Assembly: GCF_000384115.1 (NCBI RefSeq) | Contig: NZ_KB913029.1 | Location: 2,703,057-2,767,056, forward strand | Source: Sporichthya polymorpha DSM 43042 | GTDB taxonomy: Bacteria; Actinomycetota; Actinomycetes; Sporichthyales; Sporichthyaceae | Direction of reading: 5' to 3' | DNA length: 64,000 nt | Part shown: one piece after another, positions 1,872 to 37,229 of the stretch | How positions within the stretch are numbered: the stretch's first letter is position 1 | Layout: the number at the start of each line of letters is the position of its first letter | The notes under the pieces: generated by a model | The model's input: the letters and a program-made list of their open reading frames with translations, nothing else | Databases searched by the model: none | What the model was told of the DNA's origin: nothing | Translations under genes and position numbers: made by a program

Positions 1872-3119
1872 ATGACGCAGCTGAGCGCGGCAGCAGCGGA
1901 CACCGACCGACGAGGTTCGCCGGCGTTGATGCTGACGCTGGCGACGGTCGGGTTCGCGGTGAACTTCTGGGCGTGGGCTCTGATCAGCCCCCTGGGGCCG
2001 GCGTGGCGTGACTCGGGGGCGCTCGGCGATCTGAGCGAGTCCGACGTGGCGCTGCTGGTCGCGGTGCCGGTCATCGTCGGGTCGTTGGGGCGCATCGTCG
2101 TGGGCGCGCTCACCGACGTCCACGGCGGGCGGGTGATGTTCCCGCTGGTCTCGGCGCTGACGATCGTCCCCGTCCTGTTCCTCGCGTTCTTCGCCCTGGA
2201 CTCCTACGCGCTCGTGCTGGTCGGAGGTTTCTTCCTCGGCATCGGGGGGACGGTCTTCGCGGTGGGGGTGCCGTTCGTCAACGCCTGGTTCCCGCCCGAA
2301 CGACGAGGCCTGGCGATCGGGATCTTCGGGGCCGGCATGGGCGGCACCGCCATCTCGGCGCTGACCACGGTCAAGCTCACCGACAACGTCGGGGAGCGGG
2401 CGCCGTTCCTTCTCACCGCGGCCGCGCTGGCGGTGTACGCGATCGTCGCCTGGCTGATCCTGCGCGACGCGCCGGGCCGGACGGCACCCACCACTTCCCT
2501 GGTGACGCGCGTCGTGTCCAACGCGAAGCTGCCCATCACCTGGCAGGCGTGTGCTCTCTACGCGGTGGCGTTCGGCGGGTACGTGGCCTTCTCCGTGTAC
2601 CTGCCGGCTTATCTGAAGACGGCTCACGATCTCACCGCCGCGGACGCCGCGAACCGCATGGCGGGCTTCGTCGTCATTGCGGTCGTGATGCGCCCGGCCG
2701 GGGGATGGCTCTCGGACCGCCTCGGGGCCGTTCCGGTGCTGACCGGGGTGTTCGCGATCGTGACGGTCTGCGCCGCGATCGCGGCCGGCAACCCGCCGCT
2801 CGCGGGCCTCGGCACGGTCGTCTTCCTCGCGATGGCGGCGGCCCTCGGTGCCGGCAGTGGTGCTGTGTTTGCCCTGATCGCGCAGGCGACCGAGCCGAGT
2901 CGGGTCGGAGGCGTGACCGGTCTCGTCGGCGCGGCCGGTGGGCTCGGCGGGTTCGCGCCGCCGCTGCTCATGGGCTACGTCTACGGCCGCACCGATTCCT
3001 ACGCGATCGGTCTCGGTCTCCTCGCCGCCACGTCGGCGGTGATGCTGCTGCTCACCCTGACCGTCGTCCGCCACACCGCGGCGACGAGGACCGCAACGCC
3101 CACGGAGGTGAGCGCGTGA
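1872..3119 (+). CDS. narK: Nitrate/nitrite transporter, MFS family (NarK-like)
   Basis: This 415-residue, 12-helix major facilitator protein moves nitrate in and/or nitrite out across the membrane. The nitrate-nitrite porter hallmarks are present: NAWFPPERRGLAIG after helix 4, and Gly-rich helices (GIFGAGMGGTAISAL; GAAGGLGGFAPPLLMG) that line the anion path in the NarK family. Its stop codon overlaps the GTG start of narG by 4 nt, so it is translationally coupled to the reductase whose substrate it supplies. It could be a nitrate/proton symporter or a nitrate/nitrite antiporter; the sequence alone does not decide. Confidence 0.93.
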   Translation: MTQLSAAAADTDRRGSPALMLTLATVGFAVNFWAWALISPLGPAWRDSGALGDLSESDVALLVAVPVIVGSLGRIVVGALTDVHGGRVMFPLVSALTIVPVLFLAFFALDSYALVLVGGFFLGIGGTVFAVGVPFVNAWFPPERRGLAIGIFGAGMGGTAISALTTVKLTDNVGERAPFLLTAAALAVYAIVAWLILRDAPGRTAPTTSLVTRVVSNAKLPITWQACALYAVAFGGYVAFSVYLPAYLKTAHDLTAADAANRMAGFVVIAVVMRPAGGWLSDRLGAVPVLTGVFAIVTVCAAIAAGNPPLAGLGTVVFLAMAAALGAGSGAVFALIAQATEPSRVGGVTGLVGAAGGLGGFAPPLLMGYVYGRTDSYAIGLGLLAATSAVMLLLTLTVVRHTAATRTATPTEVSA

Positions 3120-6100
3120 AGCGCGTCGACGAGCCCGGGTTGGACGGGGCACTGGCCGATCTGCTGGTCGGCAGCCGCCGGTTCTTCACCAAAGGAACCG
3201 TGTCGGCGGACCGGCGGACGCTGAGCAAGCGCGGCGGCCGGGCCGCCGACGACTTCTACCGGGACCGGTGGAGCCACGACAAGGTCGTGCGCTCGACCCA
3301 CGGCGTGAACTGCACCGGTTCCTGCTCCTGGAAGGTGTACGTCAAGGACGGCATCATCACGTGGGAGACCCAGCAGACTGACTATCCGTCAGCGGGTGCG
3401 GACCGTCCCGAGTACGAGCCCCGTGGCTGTCCGCGAGGCGCGGCCTTCTCCTGGTACACCTACTCGCCCACGCGCATCCGCTATCCCTACGTCCGCGGCA
3501 CGTTGCTTCAGATGTACCGGGAGGCGAAGTCTCGACTCGGCGACCCGGTGCTGGCCTGGGCCGAGATCGCCGACGATCCCGAGCGCGCCCGCGCGTACAA
3601 GTCGGCCCGCGGCAAGGGCGGCATGGTCCGCGTGTCCTGGGACGAGGCCACCGAGATCGTGGCGGCCGCGTACGTGCACACGATCCGCCGCTGGGGTCCG
3701 GACCGGGTCGCCGGATTCTCGCCGATTCCCGCGATGTCGATGGTCTCGCACGCCTCCGGCGCGCGGTTCACCTCGCTGATCGGCGGGGCGATGCTCTCCT
3801 TCTACGACTGGTACGCCGACCTTCCCGTCGCCTCGCCCCAGGTGTTCGGCGATCAGACCGACGTGCCCGAATCCGGCGACTGGTGGGATGCCGGCTACCT
3901 CGTGATGTGGGGCTCGAACGTCCCGGTCACACGGACGCCCGACGCGCACTGGATGGCCGAGGCGCGGTACCGCGGGCAGAAGGTGGTCGTCGTCGCGCCC
4001 GACTACGCCGACAACGTCAAGTTCGCCGACGAGTGGCTCGCACCCGCGCCGGGCACCGACGGCGCGCTGGCGATGGCCATGGGCCACGTGATCCTCCGGG
4101 AGTTCTTCGTCGACCGGGCGGTGCCGTACTTCGCGGACTACACGCGCCGGTTCACTGACCTGCCGCACCTGGTCCGGCTCGAACCGGCCCCCGGCGGCGG
4201 GTACCGCCCGACCAAGTTCCTCACGGCGGCCGACCTGCCTGAGCACGCGGGCACCGAGAACGCCGCCTTCAAGACCGTGGTCGTCGACGAGGTCACCGGG
4301 GCCCCCGCGGTACCGACCGGGTCGCTGGGCTTCCGCTTCGGCCCGGAGGGCGCGGGCCGCTGGAACCTCGAGCTGGGCGACCTGCAACCACGGCTCTCGC
4401 TGCTGGAGGACGGGGCGGAGGCGGTCGAGGTCCGGTTGCCGCGCTTCGACACCGGGGCGCCGGGCGACCTGGTCCGAGGAGTACCGGTGCGCCGGGTCGG
4501 CGACCACCTCGTGACCACGGTGTTCGACCTGATGCTCGCGCAGTACGGGGTGAGCCGGACCGTCGCCGGGCAGGCGCTGCCCGGGACGTGGCCGGCCGGG
4601 TACGACGACCCGCAGCCGTACACCCCGGCCTGGCAGGAGGCGATCACCGGTGTGCCGGCGGTCGCCGCGGCTCGCATCGCCCGCGAGTTCGCCCGCAACG
4701 CCGAAGAGTCGCGCGGCCGGTCGATGATCCTCATGGGGGCCGGCACCAACCACTGGTTCCACTCGGACACGATCTACCGCGGATTCCTGGCCCTCACGAC
4801 GCTGACGGGGTGTCAGGGTGTCAACGGCGGCGGGTGGGCGCATTACGTCGGGCAGGAGAAATGCCGGCCGGTCACTGGCTGGGCGCACCTCGCGTTCGCG
4901 ACGGACTGGGTCCGACCGCCGCGCCAGATGATCCAGACCGCCTACTGGTACCTCCACACCGACCAGTTCCGCTACGACCAGGTGGACGCCGGGACGCTGA
5001 GCGCCGCCTCCGGGCCGGGAGGGTTCGCGAACCGCAGCACGGCGGACCTCATCGCGCTCAGCGCGCGGATGGGATGGATGCCCTCGCACCCGACGTTCAA
5101 CCGCAACCCGCTCGACCTGGCCGACGAGGTGCGGGCCAGCGGGCGACCAGTGGGGGAGTACGTCGTCGACCAGTTGCGCTCCGGCGCGCTGCGGTTCGCC
5201 TGCGAGGACCCGGACGCACCGGAGAACTTCCCGCGCGTCCTCGCGGTGTGGCGTGCGAACCTCCTGGGTTCTTCCGCGAAGGGGAACGAGTACTTCCTGC
5301 GCCACCTGCTGGGGGCGGACAGCTCGCTGCGCGCCACGGAGGCGGCGCCGGACCGGCGGCCCCGCGAGATCGAGTGGCACGACACGGCGCCCAGCGGCAA
5401 GCTCGACCTGCTGCTCTCGCTGGACTTCCGGCAGACCAGCACGACGCTGTTCTCCGACGTGGTGCTGCCGGCCGCCACCTGGTACGAGAAGCACGACCTG
5501 AACACGACGGACATGCATCCGTACATCCATTCCTTCAACCCGGCCATCGCCCCGCCGTGGCAGACCCGCACCGACTGGGACGCCTGGCAGACGATCGCCA
5601 CGCGGTTCAGCGAGCTGGCGCGCGACCACCTGGGCACCCGCACGGACGTGGTCGCGGCTCCGCTCCTGCACGACACCCCGGACGCGATGGCCAACCCGCA
5701 CGGCGTGGTACGGGACTGGAAGGCCGGGGACTGCGAGCCCGAGCCTGGGCGCACGATGCCGAAGCTGGTGACGGTCGAGCGGGACTACGGGGCCGTCGGT
5801 GACCAGATGCGTGCCCTCGGCCCGCTCCTCGACACCCTGGGTACGACGACGAAGGGCATCACGTACGACGTCGGTACGGCGGTCGAGTACCTACGGTCGA
5901 AGAACGGTGCGATCCGGGGCGGCCCGGCCGCCGGCCGCCCGTCGCTGCAGCGTGACGTCCACGCGTGCGAGGCGATCCTCGCGCTGTCCGGCACGACGAA
6001 CGGCCACCTCGCCACCCAGGGCTTTCGGACCCTCGAGCAACGCACCGGAACCCGGTTGCACGACCTCGCGGCCGAGCACGAGGGCAAGCAGATCACCTTC

Positions 6101-6814
6101 GCCGACACCCAGGCGGCGCCGGTGCCGGTCATCACCTCGCCCGAGTGGTCGGGGTCGGAGACCGGCGGCCGCCGGTACTCACCGTTCACGATCAACGTCG
6201 AACGCAGCAAACCGTGGCACACCCTGACGGGACGTCAGCACTTCTTCCTCGACCACGACTGGATGACCGAGCTCGGGGAGAACCTGCCCGTGTACCGGCC
6301 GCCGCTGGACATGGGCGCGGTCTTCGGGGAACCGGCGATCGGGACGGTCGGGGAGCTCGGGGTGACCGTGCGCTACCTGACCCCGCACAACAAGTGGTCG
6401 ATCCACTCCGAGTACCAGGACAACCTGTTCATGCTCTCCCTCTCCCGCGGCGGGCAGACGATCTGGATGTCCGACCGGGACGCGGCCAAGGTCGGCATCG
6501 CGGACAACGACTGGATCGAGGCGGTCAACCGCAACGGCGTCGTGGTCGCGCGGGCGATCGTGTCCCACCGGATGCCGGAGGGCACGGTGTACATGCACCA
6601 CGCGCAGGACCGGCTCATCGACGTCCCGCTCGCCGAGACGTCCGGTCGGCGCGGTGGCATCCACAACTCGCTCACCCGGCTGCTGATCAAGCCCAGCCAC
6701 CTCATCGGCGGCTACGCCCAGCTGTCGTTCGCGTTCAACTACCTCGGGCCGACGGGCAACCAACGCGACGAGGTCACGGTGATCCGGAAGCGCTCGCAGG
6801 AGGTGCGGTACTGA
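3116..6814 (+). CDS. narG: Respiratory nitrate reductase, alpha subunit
   Basis: This is the 1,232-residue molybdopterin catalytic subunit that reduces nitrate to nitrite at the inner face of the membrane. The FS0 iron-sulfur ligands are seen as His62, Cys66 and Cys70 (HGVNCTGSC) and Cys105 (EPRGCPRG). The expected molybdenum-ligand Asp lies in FGDQTDVPES at about residue 249. The length matches E. coli NarG. The frame is open far upstream, but the GTG at 3116 is chosen because GGAGGTG lies 5 nt before it, it overlaps the narK stop (GTGA), and the protein then begins like other NarG sequences. There is no Tat leader, consistent with a cytoplasmic active site. Confidence 0.97.
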   Translation: MKRVDEPGLDGALADLLVGSRRFFTKGTVSADRRTLSKRGGRAADDFYRDRWSHDKVVRSTHGVNCTGSCSWKVYVKDGIITWETQQTDYPSAGADRPEYEPRGCPRGAAFSWYTYSPTRIRYPYVRGTLLQMYREAKSRLGDPVLAWAEIADDPERARAYKSARGKGGMVRVSWDEATEIVAAAYVHTIRRWGPDRVAGFSPIPAMSMVSHASGARFTSLIGGAMLSFYDWYADLPVASPQVFGDQTDVPESGDWWDAGYLVMWGSNVPVTRTPDAHWMAEARYRGQKVVVVAPDYADNVKFADEWLAPAPGTDGALAMAMGHVILREFFVDRAVPYFADYTRRFTDLPHLVRLEPAPGGGYRPTKFLTAADLPEHAGTENAAFKTVVVDEVTGAPAVPTGSLGFRFGPEGAGRWNLELGDLQPRLSLLEDGAEAVEVRLPRFDTGAPGDLVRGVPVRRVGDHLVTTVFDLMLAQYGVSRTVAGQALPGTWPAGYDDPQPYTPAWQEAITGVPAVAAARIAREFARNAEESRGRSMILMGAGTNHWFHSDTIYRGFLALTTLTGCQGVNGGGWAHYVGQEKCRPVTGWAHLAFATDWVRPPRQMIQTAYWYLHTDQFRYDQVDAGTLSAASGPGGFANRSTADLIALSARMGWMPSHPTFNRNPLDLADEVRASGRPVGEYVVDQLRSGALRFACEDPDAPENFPRVLAVWRANLLGSSAKGNEYFLRHLLGADSSLRATEAAPDRRPREIEWHDTAPSGKLDLLLSLDFRQTSTTLFSDVVLPAATWYEKHDLNTTDMHPYIHSFNPAIAPPWQTRTDWDAWQTIATRFSELARDHLGTRTDVVAAPLLHDTPDAMANPHGVVRDWKAGDCEPEPGRTMPKLVTVERDYGAVGDQMRALGPLLDTLGTTTKGITYDVGTAVEYLRSKNGAIRGGPAAGRPSLQRDVHACEAILALSGTTNGHLATQGFRTLEQRTGTRLHDLAAEHEGKQITFADTQAAPVPVITSPEWSGSETGGRRYSPFTINVERSKPWHTLTGRQHFFLDHDWMTELGENLPVYRPPLDMGAVFGEPAIGTVGELGVTVRYLTPHNKWSIHSEYQDNLFMLSLSRGGQTIWMSDRDAAKVGIADNDWIEAVNRNGVVVARAIVSHRMPEGTVYMHHAQDRLIDVPLAETSGRRGGIHNSLTRLLIKPSHLIGGYAQLSFAFNYLGPTGNQRDEVTVIRKRSQEVRY

Positions 6815-8481
6815 TGCGCGTGATGGCCCAGATGGCCATGGTGATGAACCTCGACAAGTGCATCGGGTGCCACACCTGTTCGGTGACCTGCAAGCAGGCG
6901 TGGACGAACCGGACCGGCACCGAGTACGTCTGGTTCAACAACGTCGAGACCCGGCCGGGGCAGGGATACCCGCGCCGGTACGAGGACCAGGAGGAGTGGA
7001 AGGGCGGCTGGACGCTGAACAAGCGCGGTCGCCTGGCGCTCAAGGGCGGCGGCCGGTTGAAGAAGCTCGCGACGATCTTCTCCAACCCGAAGATGCCGTC
7101 GATCGACGACTACTACGAGCCCTGGACCTACGACTACGCGACGCTCACGGACGCGCCGGCCCAGGAGCACACCCCGGTCGCGCAGCCGCAGTCGCTGTTG
7201 TCCGGCCGGCCGATGAAGGTCGAGTGGTCGGCGAACTGGGACGACAACCTCGGCGGCTCCGCAGCGACGGCCACGTCGGACCCGGTCCTGGCCCGGATCT
7301 CCGAGCAGGTCCGGATGGAGTTCGAGTCGACGTTCATGTTCTACCTGCCGCGCATCTGCGAGCACTGCCTCAACCCGTCCTGCGCGGCGTCCTGTCCGAG
7401 TGGCGCGATCTACAAGCGCAGCGAGGACGGCATCGTCCTCGTCGACCAGGACCGGTGCCGCGGCTGGCGGATGTGCGTCTCCGGGTGCCCGTACAAGAAG
7501 GTGTACTTCAACCACCGCACCGGCAAGGCCGAGAAGTGCACGTTCTGCTTCCCGCGCGTCGAGGTCGGACTGCCGACGGTGTGCTCGGAGACCTGTGTCG
7601 GCCGGTTGCGGTACATCGGCCTGGTCCTCTACGACGCGGACCGGGTGCTGGAGGCGGCGACGACGCCGGACGAGCACGGTCTCTACGAGGCGCAGCGCTC
7701 GATCTTCCTCGACCCCGACGACCCGGCCGTGGCGCGCGAGGCCGAGCGGGCCGGGATCCCCCGGGACTGGATCGAGGCGGCCCGCCGCTCGCCGGTGTAC
7801 GCGCTGATCTCCCGCTACCGCGTCGCGCTCCCGCTGCACCCGGAGTACCGCACGATGCCGATGGTCTGGTACATCCCGCCACTGTCGCCGGTCGTCGACG
7901 TCGTGCGCGAGACGGGCACCGACGCGGAGCGTGCGGAGAATCTCTTCGCCGCCATCGATGCGCTGCGCATCCCGATCGGCTACCTCGCCGAGCTGTTCAC
8001 GGCCGGCGATCCTGCCCCGGTCGACGCGGTGCTGCGTAAGCTCGCCGCGATGCGCTCGTACATGCGCGACATCAACCTCGGGCGCGAGCCGAACGCCGAG
8101 ATCCCCGCCGCGGTCGGCATGGGCGAGGAGGAGATGTACGACATGTTCCGCCTCCTCGCGCTGGCGAAGTACGACGAGCGCTACGTCATCCCACCGGCGC
8201 ACGCCGAGCAGGCGCACGCGCTGGAGGAGCTGGCGACCGACTGTTCGCTGGACTACGACGGCGGGCCCGGGATGGGCGGCTCCGGCCCGTTCGGCGAGGG
8301 GTCCGGCGCCGTGGCTCCGATCGCCGTGGAGAACTTCCACATGCTGCGGCAGCGGCAGCAGGGCGACACGCTCGTGGAGCCGGGTGACAAACCGAGACGG
8401 GTGAACCTGCTCAACTGGGACGGCAAGGGAGCGCCCGACGGCCTGTTCCCCCCGCGGAACGGCGACGGGGCCGAGAAATGA
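6814..8481 (+). CDS. narH: Respiratory nitrate reductase, beta (iron-sulfur) subunit
   Basis: This 555-residue electron-transfer subunit carries four cysteine groups: CIGCHTCSVTCK from residue 16, CEHCLNPSCAASCP, CRGWRMCVSGCP and the KCTFC...CSETC group. The Trp in CRGW replaces one Cys, the mark of the [3Fe-4S] cluster in NarH, so three [4Fe-4S] clusters and one [3Fe-4S] cluster are expected. It passes electrons from NarI haems to NarG. The ATG overlaps the narG stop by one base. The C-terminal tail is long (about 100 residues after the last cluster region), as is usual for actinobacterial NarH. Confidence 0.97.
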   Translation: MRVMAQMAMVMNLDKCIGCHTCSVTCKQAWTNRTGTEYVWFNNVETRPGQGYPRRYEDQEEWKGGWTLNKRGRLALKGGGRLKKLATIFSNPKMPSIDDYYEPWTYDYATLTDAPAQEHTPVAQPQSLLSGRPMKVEWSANWDDNLGGSAATATSDPVLARISEQVRMEFESTFMFYLPRICEHCLNPSCAASCPSGAIYKRSEDGIVLVDQDRCRGWRMCVSGCPYKKVYFNHRTGKAEKCTFCFPRVEVGLPTVCSETCVGRLRYIGLVLYDADRVLEAATTPDEHGLYEAQRSIFLDPDDPAVAREAERAGIPRDWIEAARRSPVYALISRYRVALPLHPEYRTMPMVWYIPPLSPVVDVVRETGTDAERAENLFAAIDALRIPIGYLAELFTAGDPAPVDAVLRKLAAMRSYMRDINLGREPNAEIPAAVGMGEEEMYDMFRLLALAKYDERYVIPPAHAEQAHALEELATDCSLDYDGGPGMGGSGPFGEGSGAVAPIAVENFHMLRQRQQGDTLVEPGDKPRRVNLLNWDGKGAPDGLFPPRNGDGAEK

Positions 8482-9197
8482 TGAGGACACTGCTGCGCCG
8501 CCGGACCGCGATCGGCGACCTGACCGACGATCAGCGACGGATCACCTGGCAGGCGGCCTCGCTCCTGCTGGACTACCCCGACGACGACCTGGTCTCTCGG
8601 TTGGACCTGGTGCACCGCGGTTCCGACGCCCTGCCGTCGGTGCTCGCCGAACCGCTGCGTCGCACGGTCGCCGAGCTGGCCTCGGCGCCGTTGTCGGAGC
8701 TGCAGGCCGAGTACGTCGAGACCTTCGACCGCCGTCGGCAGCATGCGTTGTTCCTCACCTACTTCACGCACGGGGACACGCGCCGGCGGGGGATGGCGCT
8801 GCTGCGGTTCGCCGAGGCCTACGCGGCGTCCGGATACGTGCTCACGGCGGCCGAGCTGCCGGACCACCTCTGCGTCGTGCTCGAGTACGGCGCCACCGTC
8901 GACGCCGCCGTGGCCCATCGGCTCCTCTGCGACCACCGGGCGGGGCTGGAGGTGCTGCGCCGTGCCCTGGTCGGGGAAGGTGCCCGCTGGGCGGGTGCCC
9001 TCGAAGCGGTGTGCGCCACCCTCCCGGCGCTGGCCGGGGACGAGGCCGCGGCGGTGGAGGCGCTGATCGCGGCGGGTCCGCCGGAGGAGGAGGTCGGACT
9101 CACGCCCTACGGCACGCCCGGGTTCGACGTCGGCCCGGCGGTGCCGGCGCCGGCCGCGCCCGTCGACCTGCCCATGCCCGGGCTGCGGAGGGGGTGA
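8478..9197 (+). CDS. narJ: Nitrate reductase assembly chaperone (delta subunit)
   Basis: This 239-residue TorD/NarJ-family chaperone binds apo-NarG and is needed for molybdenum cofactor insertion before the NarGH complex docks on NarI; it is not part of the final enzyme. The segment LLDYPDDDL near the N-terminus and ETFDRRRQHALFLTYFTHGDTRRRG are typical of NarJ. The start overlaps the narH stop (ATGA), and a second ATG follows at once, so either of the first two codons may be used. The C-terminus is Pro/Ala-rich and probably flexible. Confidence 0.94.
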   Translation: MMRTLLRRRTAIGDLTDDQRRITWQAASLLLDYPDDDLVSRLDLVHRGSDALPSVLAEPLRRTVAELASAPLSELQAEYVETFDRRRQHALFLTYFTHGDTRRRGMALLRFAEAYAASGYVLTAAELPDHLCVVLEYGATVDAAVAHRLLCDHRAGLEVLRRALVGEGARWAGALEAVCATLPALAGDEAAAVEALIAAGPPEEEVGLTPYGTPGFDVGPAVPAPAAPVDLPMPGLRRG

Positions 9198-9198
9198 C

Positions 9199-9915
9199 GT
9201 GGACGAGTTCCTCTGGGTCGTGGTGCCGTACGTCTGTCTCACGACGTTCGTCGTCGGCCACTACTGGCGGTACCGCTACGACAAGTTCGGCTGGACCACC
9301 CGGTCCTCGCAGCTCTACGAGGACCGGTTGCTGCGGTGGGGAAGCCCGCTGTTCCACATCGGGATCCTGGCCGTCTTCCTCGGCCACGTGATGGGTCTCG
9401 GCGTGCCGAAGTCGTGGACCGAGGAGGTGGGGATCTCCGAGGACCTGTACCACTTCCTCGCGGTGTCCGTCGGCGCGATCGCCGGCGCCGGGACGCTGAT
9501 CGGTATGGCGATCCTGATCTATCGCCGTCGCACGGTCGGGCCCGTCTTCTCCGCGACGACGGTGATGGACAAGGTGATGTACCTGGTCCTGGGGACCGTC
9601 ATCGTGCTCGGGCTCGCCAATACCGTCGGAGCGAACATCATCGACCACTACGACTACCGCGAGGGCGTCTCGGTCTGGTTCCGCGGCATCTTCCGTTTCG
9701 ACACCCACCCCGAGCTGATGGCGGAGGCCCCGCTGGGCTTCCAGCTGCACGGTCTGGCCGCGATGCTGCTGTTCGCGCTCTGGCCGTTCACCCGGCTCGT
9801 GCACGTGTTCAGTGCCCCCGTGGGTTACCTGACCCGCCCCTACATCGTCTACCGCAGCCGCGACGAGCAACTCGGCTCCCACCGTCCGCGTCGCGGATGG
9901 GAGCGTGTGGGGTGA
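9199..9915 (+). CDS. narI: Respiratory nitrate reductase, gamma subunit (cytochrome b)
   Basis: This 238-residue integral membrane protein with five predicted helices oxidises menaquinol and anchors NarGH. The haem-ligand histidines can be placed in GSPLFHIG and FLGHVMG (helix 2) and in LGFQLHGL...RLVHVFS (helix 5). The GTG start lies one base after the narJ stop and its N-terminus faces the outside, as in known NarI. It ends the narKGHJI run; the cupin gene follows 31 bp later. Confidence 0.95.
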   Translation: MDEFLWVVVPYVCLTTFVVGHYWRYRYDKFGWTTRSSQLYEDRLLRWGSPLFHIGILAVFLGHVMGLGVPKSWTEEVGISEDLYHFLAVSVGAIAGAGTLIGMAILIYRRRTVGPVFSATTVMDKVMYLVLGTVIVLGLANTVGANIIDHYDYREGVSVWFRGIFRFDTHPELMAEAPLGFQLHGLAAMLLFALWPFTRLVHVFSAPVGYLTRPYIVYRSRDEQLGSHRPRRGWERVG

Positions 9916-32436: not shown

Positions 32437-32475
32437 CGATCCGGGGTTGACCCGGCCGTGTGCCGTCCTTCAGGA

Positions 32476-32505
32476 TAGACACTCTGTCCAGTCACTCTGT
32501 ACAGG
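32476..32505. promoter_or_regulatory. Operator-like repeats before the NorEF-like operon
   Basis: A 13-bp direct repeat, CACTCTGTCCAGT (32480-32492) and CACTCTGTACAGG (32493-32505), overlaps two dyads: TAGACA-CTC-TGTCCA (32476-32490, 5 of 6 arm positions) and the perfect CTGTACAG (32497-32504). Such paired sites are usual for TetR-type repressors in lipid catabolism genes. GGATAGAC at the left edge may be part of a -10 element. Confidence 0.5.
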
Positions 32506-32542
32506 CATCCCGCGTCCTCCGAGGGATCGTCAGGAGACGACG

Positions 32543-33277
32543 GTGAGCAAGCAAGTCCAGACCGTGATGGCGTGGAGCGGCGTCGCGTTCGTCGTGGTCT
32601 TCTTCGCGGGCTTCCTGATCAGTGGCTTCTTCCCGCCGATCCAGCCCGACGACACCCCGCAGCAGATCGCCGAGCGCTACGTCGCCGACCAGGACCGGAT
32701 CCGCGCCGGCATGGTCCTGATGATGATCGGCTGCGTCTTCCTGATGCCGTTCGCGGCAATCGTCAGCGCGCAGATGGCGCGCATCGAGGGCCGGTGGACG
32801 CCACTGACCTACCTCAACCTCGTCGCCGGGGCGGTCGGCACGGTCGCCGCTCTGCTGCCGGTCCTGCTCTTTCTCGGGATCGCCTACCGGCCCGAGAACC
32901 GCGACCCGGAACTGCTCCAGGCGCTGAACGACTTCGTCTGGGTGCCGTTCATCATCAACTGGCCGCCGGCGTTCGTCGAGGCGCTCTGCATCGCGGCGGT
33001 GATCTTCACGGACCGGCGGGCGAACCCGGTCTTCCCGCGGTGGATCGCGTACTTCCTGATGTGGACCGCGATCGCGTTCCTGCCGGCCTGCGCCCTGCCG
33101 TTCTTCTACGACGGACCCTTCGCCTGGGACGGCCTGCTCACCTTCTGGCTGGCCGCGGTCTTCTTCGGCTGCTTCTATCTCGTGATGTCCTGGGCCTGCC
33201 TGCGCGCCGTGAAGCAGCAGTTCGCGGCGGGCGGCACCGACACCGACGCCCAGATTCCGGACCTGTTGCCTGCATGA
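32543..33277 (+). CDS. Polytopic membrane protein, paralogue A
   Basis: This 244-residue protein has about six to seven predicted membrane helices and no recognised enzymatic motif. Its last third (VFPRWIAYFLMWTAIAFLP and FAWDGLLTFWLAAVFFGCFY) closely matches the next gene product, so the two arose by duplication. The N-terminal loop SGFFPPIQPDDTPQQIAERY also has a counterpart there. GTG 32543 is chosen because AGGAG lies 7-11 nt upstream, rather than the longer open frame. It overlaps the paralogue by ATGA. The operon setting suggests a membrane complex with the NorE/NorF-like proteins, but the function is unknown. Confidence 0.78.
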   Translation: MSKQVQTVMAWSGVAFVVVFFAGFLISGFFPPIQPDDTPQQIAERYVADQDRIRAGMVLMMIGCVFLMPFAAIVSAQMARIEGRWTPLTYLNLVAGAVGTVAALLPVLLFLGIAYRPENRDPELLQALNDFVWVPFIINWPPAFVEALCIAAVIFTDRRANPVFPRWIAYFLMWTAIAFLPACALPFFYDGPFAWDGLLTFWLAAVFFGCFYLVMSWACLRAVKQQFAAGGTDTDAQIPDLLPA

Positions 33278-34023
33278 ACACACTCTCGACCACCACCCAG
33301 CGGGGGATGACCTACTGCGCCCTCGCGTTCTGCGCCGTCTACGGCACCGGCATCCTGCTCGCGGGTTTCGTCCCGCCGCCGTCGCCGAACGACAGCGCCG
33401 AGGAGATCTCCGACTTCTTCGCCTCGAACACCGGGCGGATCCGCACCGGGACGCTGCTGATGATGCTCGGTGGCGCGCTGATGATCCCGTTCTTCGCCGT
33501 GCTGACGCTGCAGATGCGCCGCATCCGCGGGCGGTTCGACGGACTCGCGCTCGCCCAACTGGTGGCCGGTGGCATCGCGGTGTGGGTCTTCACGCTGCCG
33601 CCGATCGTCTTCGCCGTCGCGGCGTTCCGGCCCGGCCAGAACCCCGATGTCACGCAGATGCTCAACGACCTCGGCTGGTTCCTGTTCGTCTGGAACCTCG
33701 GCACGGTGACGTGCCAGGCGGTCGTCATTGCGATCGCGATCTTCTCCGACCGCGGGGAGCACTCCGGCGACGGTGAGCCCGTCTTCCCGCGCTGGGTCGC
33801 GTATCTGAACGTGTGGGTGGCGATCGGCTTCCTGCCCGGAGCCGCGCTCACGTACTTCAAGACCGGGATCTTTGCCTGGAACGGCGTGCTGGCCTTTTGG
33901 CTCGCGGCCGTGCTGTTCTTCTCCTGGATCCTCGTCCTGTTCTGGTCCACGCTGCGCGCGGTCAACCGTGAGGCGGCGCAGGCCGTTCCCAACCCGCTCG
34001 TCGGAAAGGAAGTGCCCGCATGA
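33274..34023 (+). CDS. Polytopic membrane protein, paralogue B
   Basis: This 249-residue protein has about six to seven helices. It aligns with paralogue A over most of its length: AGFVPPPSPNDSAEEISDFF with the A-protein loop, LLMMLGGALMIPFFAVLTLQMRRI with the central helices, and VFPRWVAYLNVWVAIGFLPG and FAWNGVLAFWLAAVLFF near the end. It starts at an ATG overlapping the previous stop and ends overlapping the NorE-like start, both by ATGA. No haem- or metal-ligand pattern is conserved strongly enough to call. Confidence 0.78.
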   Translation: MNTLSTTTQRGMTYCALAFCAVYGTGILLAGFVPPPSPNDSAEEISDFFASNTGRIRTGTLLMMLGGALMIPFFAVLTLQMRRIRGRFDGLALAQLVAGGIAVWVFTLPPIVFAVAAFRPGQNPDVTQMLNDLGWFLFVWNLGTVTCQAVVIAIAIFSDRGEHSGDGEPVFPRWVAYLNVWVAIGFLPGAALTYFKTGIFAWNGVLAFWLAAVLFFSWILVLFWSTLRAVNREAAQAVPNPLVGKEVPA

Positions 34024-34613
34024 CCGCGGAGGTGGAAGCCCCGCCGGAACGCCCAGCCAGCAAGGGGCATGTCCCGGGTGAACCGGGTCTGTGGGTGTTC
34101 CTGCTCGGGGACATGGTGGTCTTCGGGATCTTCTTCGGCACGATTCTGGTGCTGCGGGGCCGGGAGCCGGAGATGTTCACCTCCTCGGCCGAGACGCTGC
34201 ACCTGGAGTGGGGTGTCGCGAACACGATCGTGCTGCTGACGAGTTCGTTGTTCGTGGTTCTCGGCATGCATCTGGCGCGGGCACGGCACCACCGGGCGCC
34301 GATGTTCTTCCTGGCCGCGATCGCGTGCGGGCTGTTGTTCGCCGGGGTGAAGGCGATCGAGTACACCTCGCTGATCTCCGACGACCACACCGCGTCGGTG
34401 AACGACTTCTACACCTACTACTTCATGTTCACCGGCATCCACCTCGGCCACGTGGTGCTGGGCATGGGTGGTCTGCTGGTCGCGATGCGGATCTCGCGTC
34501 CGACGGCCAGTGGCACTCACCGGATGGCTGCGTTGGAGGGTGTCGCGAGCTTCTGGCACCTGGTCGACCTGCTCTGGATCATGTTGTTCGCGACTCTCTA
34601 CCTGGTGCGCTGA
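34020..34613 (+). CDS. NorE-like cytochrome c oxidase subunit III family protein
   Basis: This 197-residue, five-helix member of the cytochrome c oxidase subunit III family is closest in pattern to NorE: GLWVFLLGDMVVFGIFFGTILVLRGREPEMF in helix 1, then NTIVLLTSSLFVVLGMHLAR and YYFMFTGIHLGHVVLGM, ending FWHLVDLLWIMLFATLYLVR. Subunits III carry no redox centres. There is no oxidase subunit I or II and no norB in the window, so this is not a complete terminal oxidase or nitric-oxide reductase operon. It overlaps both neighbours. Confidence 0.88.
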   Translation: MTAEVEAPPERPASKGHVPGEPGLWVFLLGDMVVFGIFFGTILVLRGREPEMFTSSAETLHLEWGVANTIVLLTSSLFVVLGMHLARARHHRAPMFFLAAIACGLLFAGVKAIEYTSLISDDHTASVNDFYTYYFMFTGIHLGHVVLGMGGLLVAMRISRPTASGTHRMAALEGVASFWHLVDLLWIMLFATLYLVR

Positions 34614-34939
34614 TGACCTCGCCGACTGCGGAATCCCCGATGACTGTCGAATCGATGACCGGCTCTGCGCTGAGGAGCCCGGCCGTGCGGGCCTCGTTCG
34701 TGGTGTGGGCGGCGCTGGTGGTGTTCACGGTCGCCTCCTTCGCCCTGGGTGGGGAGCACCTGATCGAGAACAAGGAACTGGCCGCCGCCGTCGTGATCGG
34801 CATCGGCGCGATCAAGGTCCGCCTGGTCGGGCTGCACTTCATGGAGCTGCGCCATGCCCCGATCGCCCTCCGCCTCGCGTTCGAGGCCTACTGCGTCCTG
34901 ATCTTCGGAGTCCTCATGGGGATCTACCTGTTCGTCTGA
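34613..34939 (+). CDS. NorF/cytochrome oxidase subunit IV-like membrane protein
   Basis: This 108-residue protein has three membrane helices (SFVVWAALVVFTVASFALG; AAAVVIGIGAIKVRLVGLHF; AFEAYCVLIFGVLMGIYLF), which is the layout of the prokaryotic subunit IV/NorF family. The segment IKVRLVGLHFMELRHAP is characteristic. The ATG overlaps the NorE-like stop by one base. The N-terminal 25 residues are polar, and another ATG lies at MTVESM, so the start could be slightly later. Confidence 0.85.
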   Translation: MTSPTAESPMTVESMTGSALRSPAVRASFVVWAALVVFTVASFALGGEHLIENKELAAAVVIGIGAIKVRLVGLHFMELRHAPIALRLAFEAYCVLIFGVLMGIYLFV

Positions 34940-34948
34940 CGGAGAGAA

Positions 34949-36610
34949 ATGCCTGACGCCTCCTCCCGCTGGTCCGCCTCCCGCTTCGTCGGGGGGTCAG
35001 AAGGCCGTGTCGACACGCTCGACAACGCGGACTGCAAGCCCGACGTCTGCTGGACGACGGGCAACGTCGCCGACGCCTTCCCGGGTGTGTTCACCGCCTT
35101 CACCTTCTCCTTCGTGCACGAGCCGATGGAGATCGCGATGCGGCGGATGTTCCACACGCTCGGGGTCTTCACCGCCGACGAGCTCAGCGTCTCGCCGCGG
35201 CTGGAGGACCAGTTCTGGAACGCCTTCGCCGGGCGGGCCGCGGCGAACATCGACCAGTTCCGTCGGGTCGCCGGCCTGCTGCCGGGGACGTCGGCGACGG
35301 CGATCGAGCAGCAGCTGTTCGGCTACGTCCGGCCGGAGACCGTCGACGACAACAGCCTGCACCGGTACCCCGCGATCCTCGCGAAGGCGCCGCGTGCGGT
35401 GACCACGCTGCCGAAGCGGCACGACGCGATGTTCGCCGACCTGCGCGCCTGGCGCCTCGCGTCGCTCGCGCGCGTCCCCGACCTCGACGAGGCGGGTTGT
35501 CTCGAGCTGATCGGCGACGCCAAGCACCGCTTCGGGCGCTTCATGCTCGAGCACCTCATCGTCGCGTTCGTCAGCTCGGGCCTTGCCGACCGGCTGACCG
35601 ACCTCACGACCAAGGCCGGGCTGCCCGGGTTGGAGGCGCGGCTGCTCTCCGGCGTCGGGTCGGACGAGAACGAGGTCGCGAACGACCTGTGGGAGCTTGC
35701 GCACGAGCAGCTCTCGTTGGCGGAGTTCCTCGACCGGCACGGGTACCACGGCCCGAACGAGGGTCAGATCTCCGGCGTCTCCTGGCGTGAGGACCCGTCA
35801 CCGGTGCTGAACCGGCTCGCCGACTACCGCAACATTGCGGCCGACGACCCGCGGGCGCCGCGCAACCGCAGCGCCGCGCAGGCGCGGCTGCGGGCCGAGG
35901 CGGCGGCGGAACTCGGCAGCACGTCGCGGGTCGTGGGCGCGCAGGTCCGGCTCCTGGTGAAACTGACGGCCCGTTTCCTGGCGCTGCGCGAGCAGGGCAA
36001 GGCGGGCTACCTGCTGACCTTCGACGTGACCAAGGCGGCCTGCCGGCGGCTCGGGGCGTTGCTCGTGGAGCGCGGCGTGCTCGCCGACCCGGAGGACGTC
36101 TTCCACCTCACCCACGGCGAGCTCGTCGACGGGCTGACCGACCTGCCGGGCGGGCTCTCGGTGGCCGACCTCGTCGCGACCCGGCGGGCGCTGTACGAGG
36201 AGCGCACGGATCTGCGCCTTCCGCAGGCGTGGCAGGGCGTCCCGGTGCTGACCAAGGTCGAGGAGCCCTCGGCCGAGGGCTCGGCGGTCGGCGCGGTCGT
36301 GAAGGGTCTTGCCGCCAGCAGCGGCGTCGCCGAGGGTCGCGCCCGTGTGGTCCGCGACCCCGCGACCGCGGAGTTCGACGACGGCGACATCCTCGTCTGC
36401 GAGAACACCGACCCGGGCTGGATCTCGCTCTTCCTGGTCGCCGCAGCGGTTGTGACCGACCAGGGCGGCATGCTCAGCCACGGCCCGATCGTGGCCCGCG
36501 AGCTCGGCCTGCCGTGCGTCTGCGGGACCGAGGACGGCAGCCGCCGCATCGCCGACGGCCAGCGGGTGCGGGTCGACGGCGACGCCGGCATCGTCACGGT
36601 GCTGGAGTGA
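34949..36610 (+). CDS. PEP-utilising mobile-domain protein lacking ATP-grasp
   Basis: This 553-residue protein ends in a PEP-utilising phosphohistidine domain (about residues 455-553) with the catalytic His511 in TDQGGMLSHGPIVARELGLP. The central part is helical and resembles the middle region of PEP synthase/rifampin phosphotransferase-like proteins, beginning WTTGNVADAFPGVFTAFTFSF. The ATP-grasp domain that normally precedes this (about 300 residues) is absent, and the start region is short. It may work with a separate nucleotide-binding partner or have a non-phosphotransfer role. It is the last gene of the membrane/NorEF-like operon, 9 bp after the NorF-like stop. Confidence 0.85.
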   Translation: MPDASSRWSASRFVGGSEGRVDTLDNADCKPDVCWTTGNVADAFPGVFTAFTFSFVHEPMEIAMRRMFHTLGVFTADELSVSPRLEDQFWNAFAGRAAANIDQFRRVAGLLPGTSATAIEQQLFGYVRPETVDDNSLHRYPAILAKAPRAVTTLPKRHDAMFADLRAWRLASLARVPDLDEAGCLELIGDAKHRFGRFMLEHLIVAFVSSGLADRLTDLTTKAGLPGLEARLLSGVGSDENEVANDLWELAHEQLSLAEFLDRHGYHGPNEGQISGVSWREDPSPVLNRLADYRNIAADDPRAPRNRSAAQARLRAEAAAELGSTSRVVGAQVRLLVKLTARFLALREQGKAGYLLTFDVTKAACRRLGALLVERGVLADPEDVFHLTHGELVDGLTDLPGGLSVADLVATRRALYEERTDLRLPQAWQGVPVLTKVEEPSAEGSAVGAVVKGLAASSGVAEGRARVVRDPATAEFDDGDILVCENTDPGWISLFLVAAAVVTDQGGMLSHGPIVARELGLPCVCGTEDGSRRIADGQRVRVDGDAGIVTVLE

Positions 36611-36731: not shown

Positions 36732-37229
36732 ATGCGGAAGCTCACCCGCGCTGCGCTCGTCCTCGGCTCCTCGGCCGCGCTCGTCCTCGGGACCGCGGCC
36801 GCGTCCCCCGCTGCCCGGCCCGCCGACGACGGCGTCCTCGGCGCGATCCTCGGCGGTGCCCACGACCGCGTCGGCGACCGCGACGGCCACGACTGGGACG
36901 AGAACGAGTCCCGGTGGACCGAGGAGGTCGACCGCTGGAAGGACGACGACCGGTGGGACAGCGACCGGTGGGACAGCGACCGGTGGGACTGGGAGAACGA
37001 GGACGAGGACGACGACCGCGACTTCCGCTGGGAGAACGACGACTCCGACTCCGACGACGGCGCCTCTGTCCTCGAGCTCGGCGGCCTCCAGCTGATCACC
37101 GTCACCGAGGGCGTCGAGCTTCTCAACCTTGACCTCGGCGACGAGGACCTCGAGGACCGTCGCTGGAACGATCGCGACGCCGATGACGACGATGACGGCG
37201 GCCTGAACATCGGCGGCCTTCTCGGCTGA
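36732..37229 (+). CDS. Secreted Asp-rich protein with DRWDS repeats
   Basis: This 165-residue protein has a signal peptide (cleavage near ASPAARPAD) and an extremely acidic body. Residues about 70-90 contain DDRWDSDRWDSDRWDWENED, a five-residue DRWDS repeat encoded by a 15-bp DNA repeat (36949-36990). A later uncharged segment, ASVLELGGLQLITVTEGVELL, could form a short beta hairpin. There are no Cys residues and no anchor. GGAGG precedes the ATG. The Asp density suggests calcium binding or a surface coat role, by composition only. Confidence 0.75.
   Translation: MRKLTRAALVLGSSAALVLGTAAASPAARPADDGVLGAILGGAHDRVGDRDGHDWDENESRWTEEVDRWKDDDRWDSDRWDSDRWDWENEDEDDDRDFRWENDDSDSDDGASVLELGGLQLITVTEGVELLNLDLGDEDLEDRRWNDRDADDDDDGGLNIGGLLG

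Follow-up and report, generated by a model that had tools for sequence, protein, structure and literature searches.

The window analysed here is the whole 64,000-nt stretch of the soil actinomycete Sporichthya polymorpha DSM 43042 (contig NZ_KB913029.1, forward-strand positions 2,703,057 to 2,767,056), whose genome is complete at 5.5 Mb, and it carries on its plus strand a compact row of five genes at 32543-36610 in which four membrane-protein genes precede the gene of a putative dikinase half. The first, mem1 (32543-33277, 244 aa), starts with GTG behind an AGGAG at 32532-32536 and encodes a DUF4386-like protein read as having six transmembrane segments (6-TM), while mem2 (33274-34023, 249 aa) encodes its paralogue, 41% identical over 233 aa. 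They are followed by a NorE-like gene (34020-34613, 197 aa) of the haem-copper oxidase subunit III family and a NorF-like gene (34613-34939) of the prokaryotic COX subunit IV family, whose product has 108 aa from the overlapping start, or 84 aa if a possible alternative start at 34685 is used. The last gene (34949-36610) encodes a protein with a phosphoenolpyruvate (PEP)-mobile domain, hereafter the PEP protein, which joins a substrate-binding domain to a phosphohistidine swivel domain (His511) of the type found in rifampin phosphotransferase (RPH) and HpeH, and lacks an ATP-grasp domain. The junctions are overlaps of 4 nt (mem1/mem2), 4 nt (mem2/NorE-like), and 1 nt (NorE-like/NorF-like), with a gap of 9 bp before the PEP gene, and the five genes presumably share one transcript. 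Thus, what a first-pass annotation had described, namely five tightly packed genes encoding two paralogous polytopic proteins, subunit III/IV-like proteins without subunits I and II, and a PEP-mobile protein without its ATP-grasp, is confirmed at the same place and with the same spacing. The grouping is more than chance, as many genera carry the first four genes side by side and all three genomes examined within the genus retain the operon, one of them without mem1.

A genome-contig scan with the four NorE-like proteins of this genome recovered at least 553 relatives, of which the best 80 were examined; gene calls at these loci came from a simple codon-usage caller, so that starts and small genes there are approximate. 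The best 80 relatives span Mycobacteriaceae, Nocardioidaceae, Pseudonocardiaceae, Streptomyces, Frankia, gammaproteobacteria, sphingomonads, and Calothrix, and the best match of the window NorE-like protein, among the matches listed, belongs to a metagenome-assembled genome of Sporichthya (83%). At the 76 loci away from contig edges, mem lies directly 5' of norE in 61, norF lies directly 3' in 65, and both flank norE in 54, the three genes mostly overlapping or being separated by <100 bp. In a class-wide sample, mem was present at 13/13 norE loci and a mem-mem pair stood directly before norE at nine of them, so that mem-mem-norE-norF, with which the window operon opens, recurs as a unit (9/13); mem was found in 0/37 random regions. 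A TetR gene is the next neighbour of the module at 8/13 class loci, compared with 3.5% TetR genes in random regions; at mem-mem-norE-norF loci such as L214 and L215 it is divergent. The mem-norE-norF trio also occurs on plasmids of several genera, its members there carrying the labels hypothetical protein, cytochrome c oxidase subunit 3, and subunit IV family protein. In the S. polymorpha genome itself, which encodes 11 mem genes, 21 PEP-mobile proteins, and five COX3 proteins, four of them NorE-like, all four NorE-like genes adjoin mem genes. It is therefore very likely that mem(-mem)-norE-norF is a real conserved module. No description of an orphan NorE/NorF or DUF4386 module was found in the open-licence literature, and the module has probably not been described so far. 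Of the earlier proposal, a real membrane module is accordingly supported, and neither of the outcomes named as refuting the proposal was observed for these genes, since they are linked in relatives and the NorE/NorF-like ones do not lie with norB or ctaD.

The mem proteins themselves gave a mixed picture in comparisons with known families. Mem1 reaches 30.3 bits against DUF4386 (PF14329; Pfam cut-off 27.6) and resembles this family in length and span, but mem2 has no family above the cut-off, and only 4 of 64 mem relatives match DUF4386 at E 0.001. The AlphaFold model of mem1 is a confident helical bundle (pLDDT 94), interpreted as 6-TM, for which no clear match to a known fold was obtained (best Foldseek E 0.15; VIA-align Z <10, to unrelated helical bundles); with scores this weak, no relation to a solved fold can be claimed, nor do they prove a new one. 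Comparison of the 64 relatives placed the strongest conservation in loops (P31, R116, D130, P165, R166, W167, G191, and G197) and revealed no conserved His or Cys, which makes a haem or metal role of mem unlikely, and this candidate function was set aside. The evidence supports a mem-norE-norF module without evident catalytic metal sites.

The NorE-like and NorF-like proteins of the window match COX3 (PF00510, 41.6 bits; cut-off 23.8) and COX4_pro (PF03626, 48.9 bits; cut-off 28.9), the Pfam families they share with CtaE and subunit IV of cytochrome aa3 oxidase. However, the NorE-like protein lies far below the NCBIfam cut-offs for CtaE (NF050119, 94.3 bits against 190) and CyoC (82.5 against 223.75) and likewise below that for QoxC, and its gene has no adjoining subunit I or II gene. 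The only COX1 match in the genome is the canonical CtaD at 4.99 Mb, and the genome therefore has no norB; a NorB or subunit I homologue was also absent from all of the best 80 norE loci. It is conceivable that the NorE/NorF-like proteins are alternative subunits III and IV that are exchanged into the aa3 oxidase upon induction, a process in which the mem proteins would assist assembly, since the NorE-like proteins keep the COX3-type motifs TGxHxxH and WHxVDxxW and CtaD is the sole subunit I available. Nevertheless, a separate gene near ctaD encodes CtaE, the NorE-like proteins split from CtaE at 100/100 in a maximum-likelihood tree of 44 proteins, the genome holds four different NorE-like copies that each adjoin mem genes, and no subunit I accompanies norE at any of the 80 loci, which together render such an exchange very unlikely.

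The window pair is also related to NorE and NorF of nor operons (norCBQDEF), with which it shares homologous sequence, the adjacency of a COX3-like and a COX4-like gene, and their order, whereas it differs in the absence of norCB, in the DUF4386-like mem genes that come first, and in the frequent presence of several copies per genome. In the same tree, a 35-row set with support of 96/92 contains all mem-linked NorE proteins and excludes those of three real nor operons, a sample of three rows of which one is a long branch. To our knowledge, NorE and NorF have no settled mechanism, even in denitrifiers. Their homology to the window proteins leaves room for a function in nitric oxide (NO) defence, in which the module would protect or assemble a membrane enzyme against NO much as NorEF supports NO reductase. 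Such a function would suit an apparent nitrate reductase operon at ~3.1-9.9 kb of the window, the NorQ and NorD homologues that share 18 kb with a mem/norE set in Actinomycetospora (L131), and the gene row AveC-like, mem, NorD, NorQ in Pseudonocardia (L279). Yet norB is missing from the genome and from the best 80 norE loci, the mem-linked NorE set stands apart from nor-operon NorE, and clusters containing NorQ and NorD usually bring AveC-like and cytochrome P450 genes, with mem in 0/18, so that NO defence also appears improbable. As a separate observation from sequence reading, window positions 1929-9915 contain an apparent nitrate transporter together with the respiratory nitrate reductase operon, in a genome without norB.

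The NorD/NorQ clusters form a conserved actinobacterial arrangement of their own, in the order NorD, NorQ, a protein of about 372 aa, an AveC-like protein, and a P450 (L284, L281, L292, and L279; in the S. polymorpha genome, G000:C1:1236000-1255500, L275). AveC-like genes occur at 14/18 NorD loci compared with 0/37 random regions, P450 genes are often present, and no NorB was found at the 18 loci, where NorD and NorQ, the metal-insertion chaperones of NO reductase, apparently serve something other than NorB. The row of AveC-like, mem, NorD, and NorQ genes in Pseudonocardia eucalypti is a tight one (L279:7529-12036). NorE-like genes are found in all 13 genomes with NorD, against 23 of 197 genomes overall, an association confounded by kinship. 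NorQ and NorD were rejected as parts of the module on the basis of the 18 loci without mem. Since mem meets both NorE/NorF and NorD/NorQ, it is conceivable that NorE and NorF, and elsewhere NorQ and NorD, were taken over by a DUF4386-like/AveC-like membrane system for lipophile metabolism; this possibility is held to be unlikely because mem is absent from the sampled NorD loci. If it were true, the mem proteins would be clients or scaffolds replacing NorB, and the window operon would be a dikinase-coupled form of the system.

The C-terminus of the PEP protein matches the PEP-utilizers family (PF00391, 83.1 bits) with no PPDK_N match, sequence searches reach the last 300 residues of RPH, and the AlphaFold model (pLDDT 88.6) matches Listeria RPH (5fbu) over its whole length (Foldseek E 7.9e-23, TM-score 0.67). 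Its phosphohistidine motif TDQGGMLSH (TxxGGxxSH) is centred on His511, which is invariant in 15 homologues. In the two-component dikinase HpeHI, the substrate and swivel domains reside in HpeH, which is reported to be related to RPH and has the motif T/SXXGGXXXH, its partner HpeI supplies the ATP-grasp domain, and PpsA and CreH have Ser before the motif His (PMC12167813). The window protein is predicted to have the full substrate-plus-swivel fold of RPH and, like PpsA and CreH, has Ser before the phosphohistidine, but in contrast to the two-component phenolic dikinases HpeHI, CreHI, and PpsAB its gene adjoins no ATP-grasp gene and has membrane-protein genes as neighbours. On sequence and model evidence, it is highly likely to be the substrate-binding and swivel half of a small-molecule dikinase. 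What had been regarded as an unexplained component is thus most probably a dikinase half of the known HpeH/PpsA/RPH type, the chemistry of which has been established with HpeHI, CreHI, PpsAB, and RPH. PPDK_N is present in only 3 of the 21 PEP-mobile proteins of the genome, all three encoded outside the window operon. Six PEP genes without ATP-grasp in this genome (L007, L034, L039, L040, L047, and L049) have a DUF7064/DUF7065-type gene no more than two genes away, and the window PEP gene has none within two genes. In addition, three proteins of 870-885 aa (L036:6332-8944, L037:5394-8015, and L050:6761-9418) carry a PEP-mobile domain preceded by an N-terminal part that, on reading of the sequence, resembles a Rossmann or short-chain dehydrogenase/reductase domain.

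Within the genus, mem2-norE-norF-PEP is kept in 3/3 genomes examined, and the genes around this core vary. In one congener (G053, L168), the order is c331-mem1-mem2-norE-norF-PEP, where the unrelated membrane protein c331 replaces the acyl-CoA ligase that lies upstream of the operon in the window; in another (G012, L165), the ligase is kept, mem1 is lost, and mem2 is the sole mem gene. Both the ligase and mem1 are therefore dispensable to the operon. The deletion in the latter genome (L165:8798-8963) left the promoter-like stretch upstream and the tail of mem1 before mem2 recognisable. In the window, the ligase gene and the operon are separated by a 106-bp gap that includes a putative promoter- or operator-like stretch on the plus strand (32447-32502), in which TTGACC (32447-32452) is followed after 18 nt by CAGGAT (32471-32476) and a 13-nt direct repeat (32477-32489 and 32490-32502); it is largely kept in L165. 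A generic sigma-70 scan did not call this stretch, so that its promoter function is something we infer. With the ligase missing upstream in L168 and a conserved promoter-like stretch in between, the suggestion that the operon serves the acyl-CoA ligase was abandoned.

The link between the PEP protein and the membrane module is less certain than the module itself. The closest relative of the PEP protein outside the genus, 63% identical (L163:8153-9763), overlaps by 4 nt the gene of a 526-aa protein with an ATP-grasp (PPDK_N) and a swivel domain (L163:6576-8156), and mem-norE-norF-PEP in one row was seen only in the window and the congeners. Consequently, the idea of a five-protein complex was not borne out, as it is only in the genus that the PEP gene stands in one row with the module, while the nearest relative elsewhere is paired with an ATP-grasp protein instead. 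Elsewhere, a 55% identical ATP-grasp protein is encoded 2.6 kb from a PEP gene (L291), and a fused 861-aa ATP-grasp-PEP protein lies amid mem, norE, and norF genes (L164). The former locus (L291:7187-11141), in a genome of the same family (G069), has NorQ-NorD directly beside the ATP-grasp and swivel gene, the PEP gene 2.6 kb on being HpeH-like. The nearest S. polymorpha counterpart of the L163 partner is a 544-aa protein, 41% identical, encoded ~77 kb downstream (G000:C1 about 2816011-2817645), which may be the partner of the window PEP protein.

The module and the PEP protein may also have two unrelated functions, the module working alone and the dikinase half having become its downstream neighbour in one genus without a functional tie. 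The genus-restricted five-gene order and the presence of a PEP gene within ~9 kb at only 3 of the best 80 norE loci are in line with this possibility. On the other hand, five of the eight mem clusters in the genome have a PEP gene without ATP-grasp no more than 5 kb away, far above chance (random mean 0.27; 0/20,000 permutations as high), indicating that mem and PEP parts belong together beyond one operon; other genomes show such clustering of mem with PEP genes as well (L164 and L166), and only 9 bp separate the NorF-like and PEP genes in the window. An association without a functional tie is regarded as possible and not as probable.

A tentative model, which we regard as possible and not as probable, is that a non-redox membrane complex presents a lipophile that the dikinase traps by phosphorylation. 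In this model, mem1, mem2, NorE, and NorF would form one complex, a non-redox module in which the 6-TM DUF4386-like proteins replace the missing catalytic subunits beside the COX3/COX4-type pair. A lipophilic hydroxylated compound would partition into or through this module, an ATP-grasp protein encoded elsewhere would charge the PEP protein on His511, and the PEP protein would phosphorylate the compound, which would then be trapped inside the cell and available to subsequent enzymes. The lipophile handled by the membrane complex would then be the kinase substrate, and the trapping role is suggested by analogy with HpeHI, for which the argument has been made (PMC12167813). Several points weigh against the model: the exact gene order is seen in one genus only, the closest PEP orthologue outside the genus has no module beside it, and the candidate ATP-grasp protein is unlinked at a distance of 77 kb and may instead be an ordinary PPDK-like enzyme. 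The annotated neighbours on plasmids and at many loci look catabolic (lipid/terpenoid), and a catabolic role is plausible for particular loci such as those on plasmids; however, when 10 norE loci were compared with 37 random regions of their seven genomes as a matched control, ten catabolic gene types showed no significant excess (1.1 vs 1.0 genes per region) and P450, acyl-CoA dehydrogenase, ligase, or similar genes were not enriched, so that a general catabolic role is not claimed. AveC-like genes (9/93 loci) and CrtI-like flavin adenine dinucleotide (FAD) genes (12/93) near norE exceed the 0/37 of random regions (p 0.04 and 0.015), which is a lead only because the queries were taken from the same loci and several loci are orthologous. 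Ecdysteroid-kinase-like genes were discarded as a recurrent partner, as they are not enriched.

Just 3' of the operon, positions 36732-37229 encode a probably exported, acidic, and repeat-rich protein of 165 aa, whose congener counterpart (L168:4839-5573) contains long Asp/Asn runs.

For the wider families, these results have several implications. Many genomes label NorE-like genes misleadingly as 'cytochrome c oxidase subunit 3'. The approximately 18 dikinase halves without ATP-grasp in the S. polymorpha genome may include further small-molecule kinases, a pool that is still unexplored. Finally, the NorE/NorF relatives are widespread, never seen with a reductase, and almost always found beside one 6-TM partner, so that the role of these proteins becomes testable in a setting free of the enzyme.

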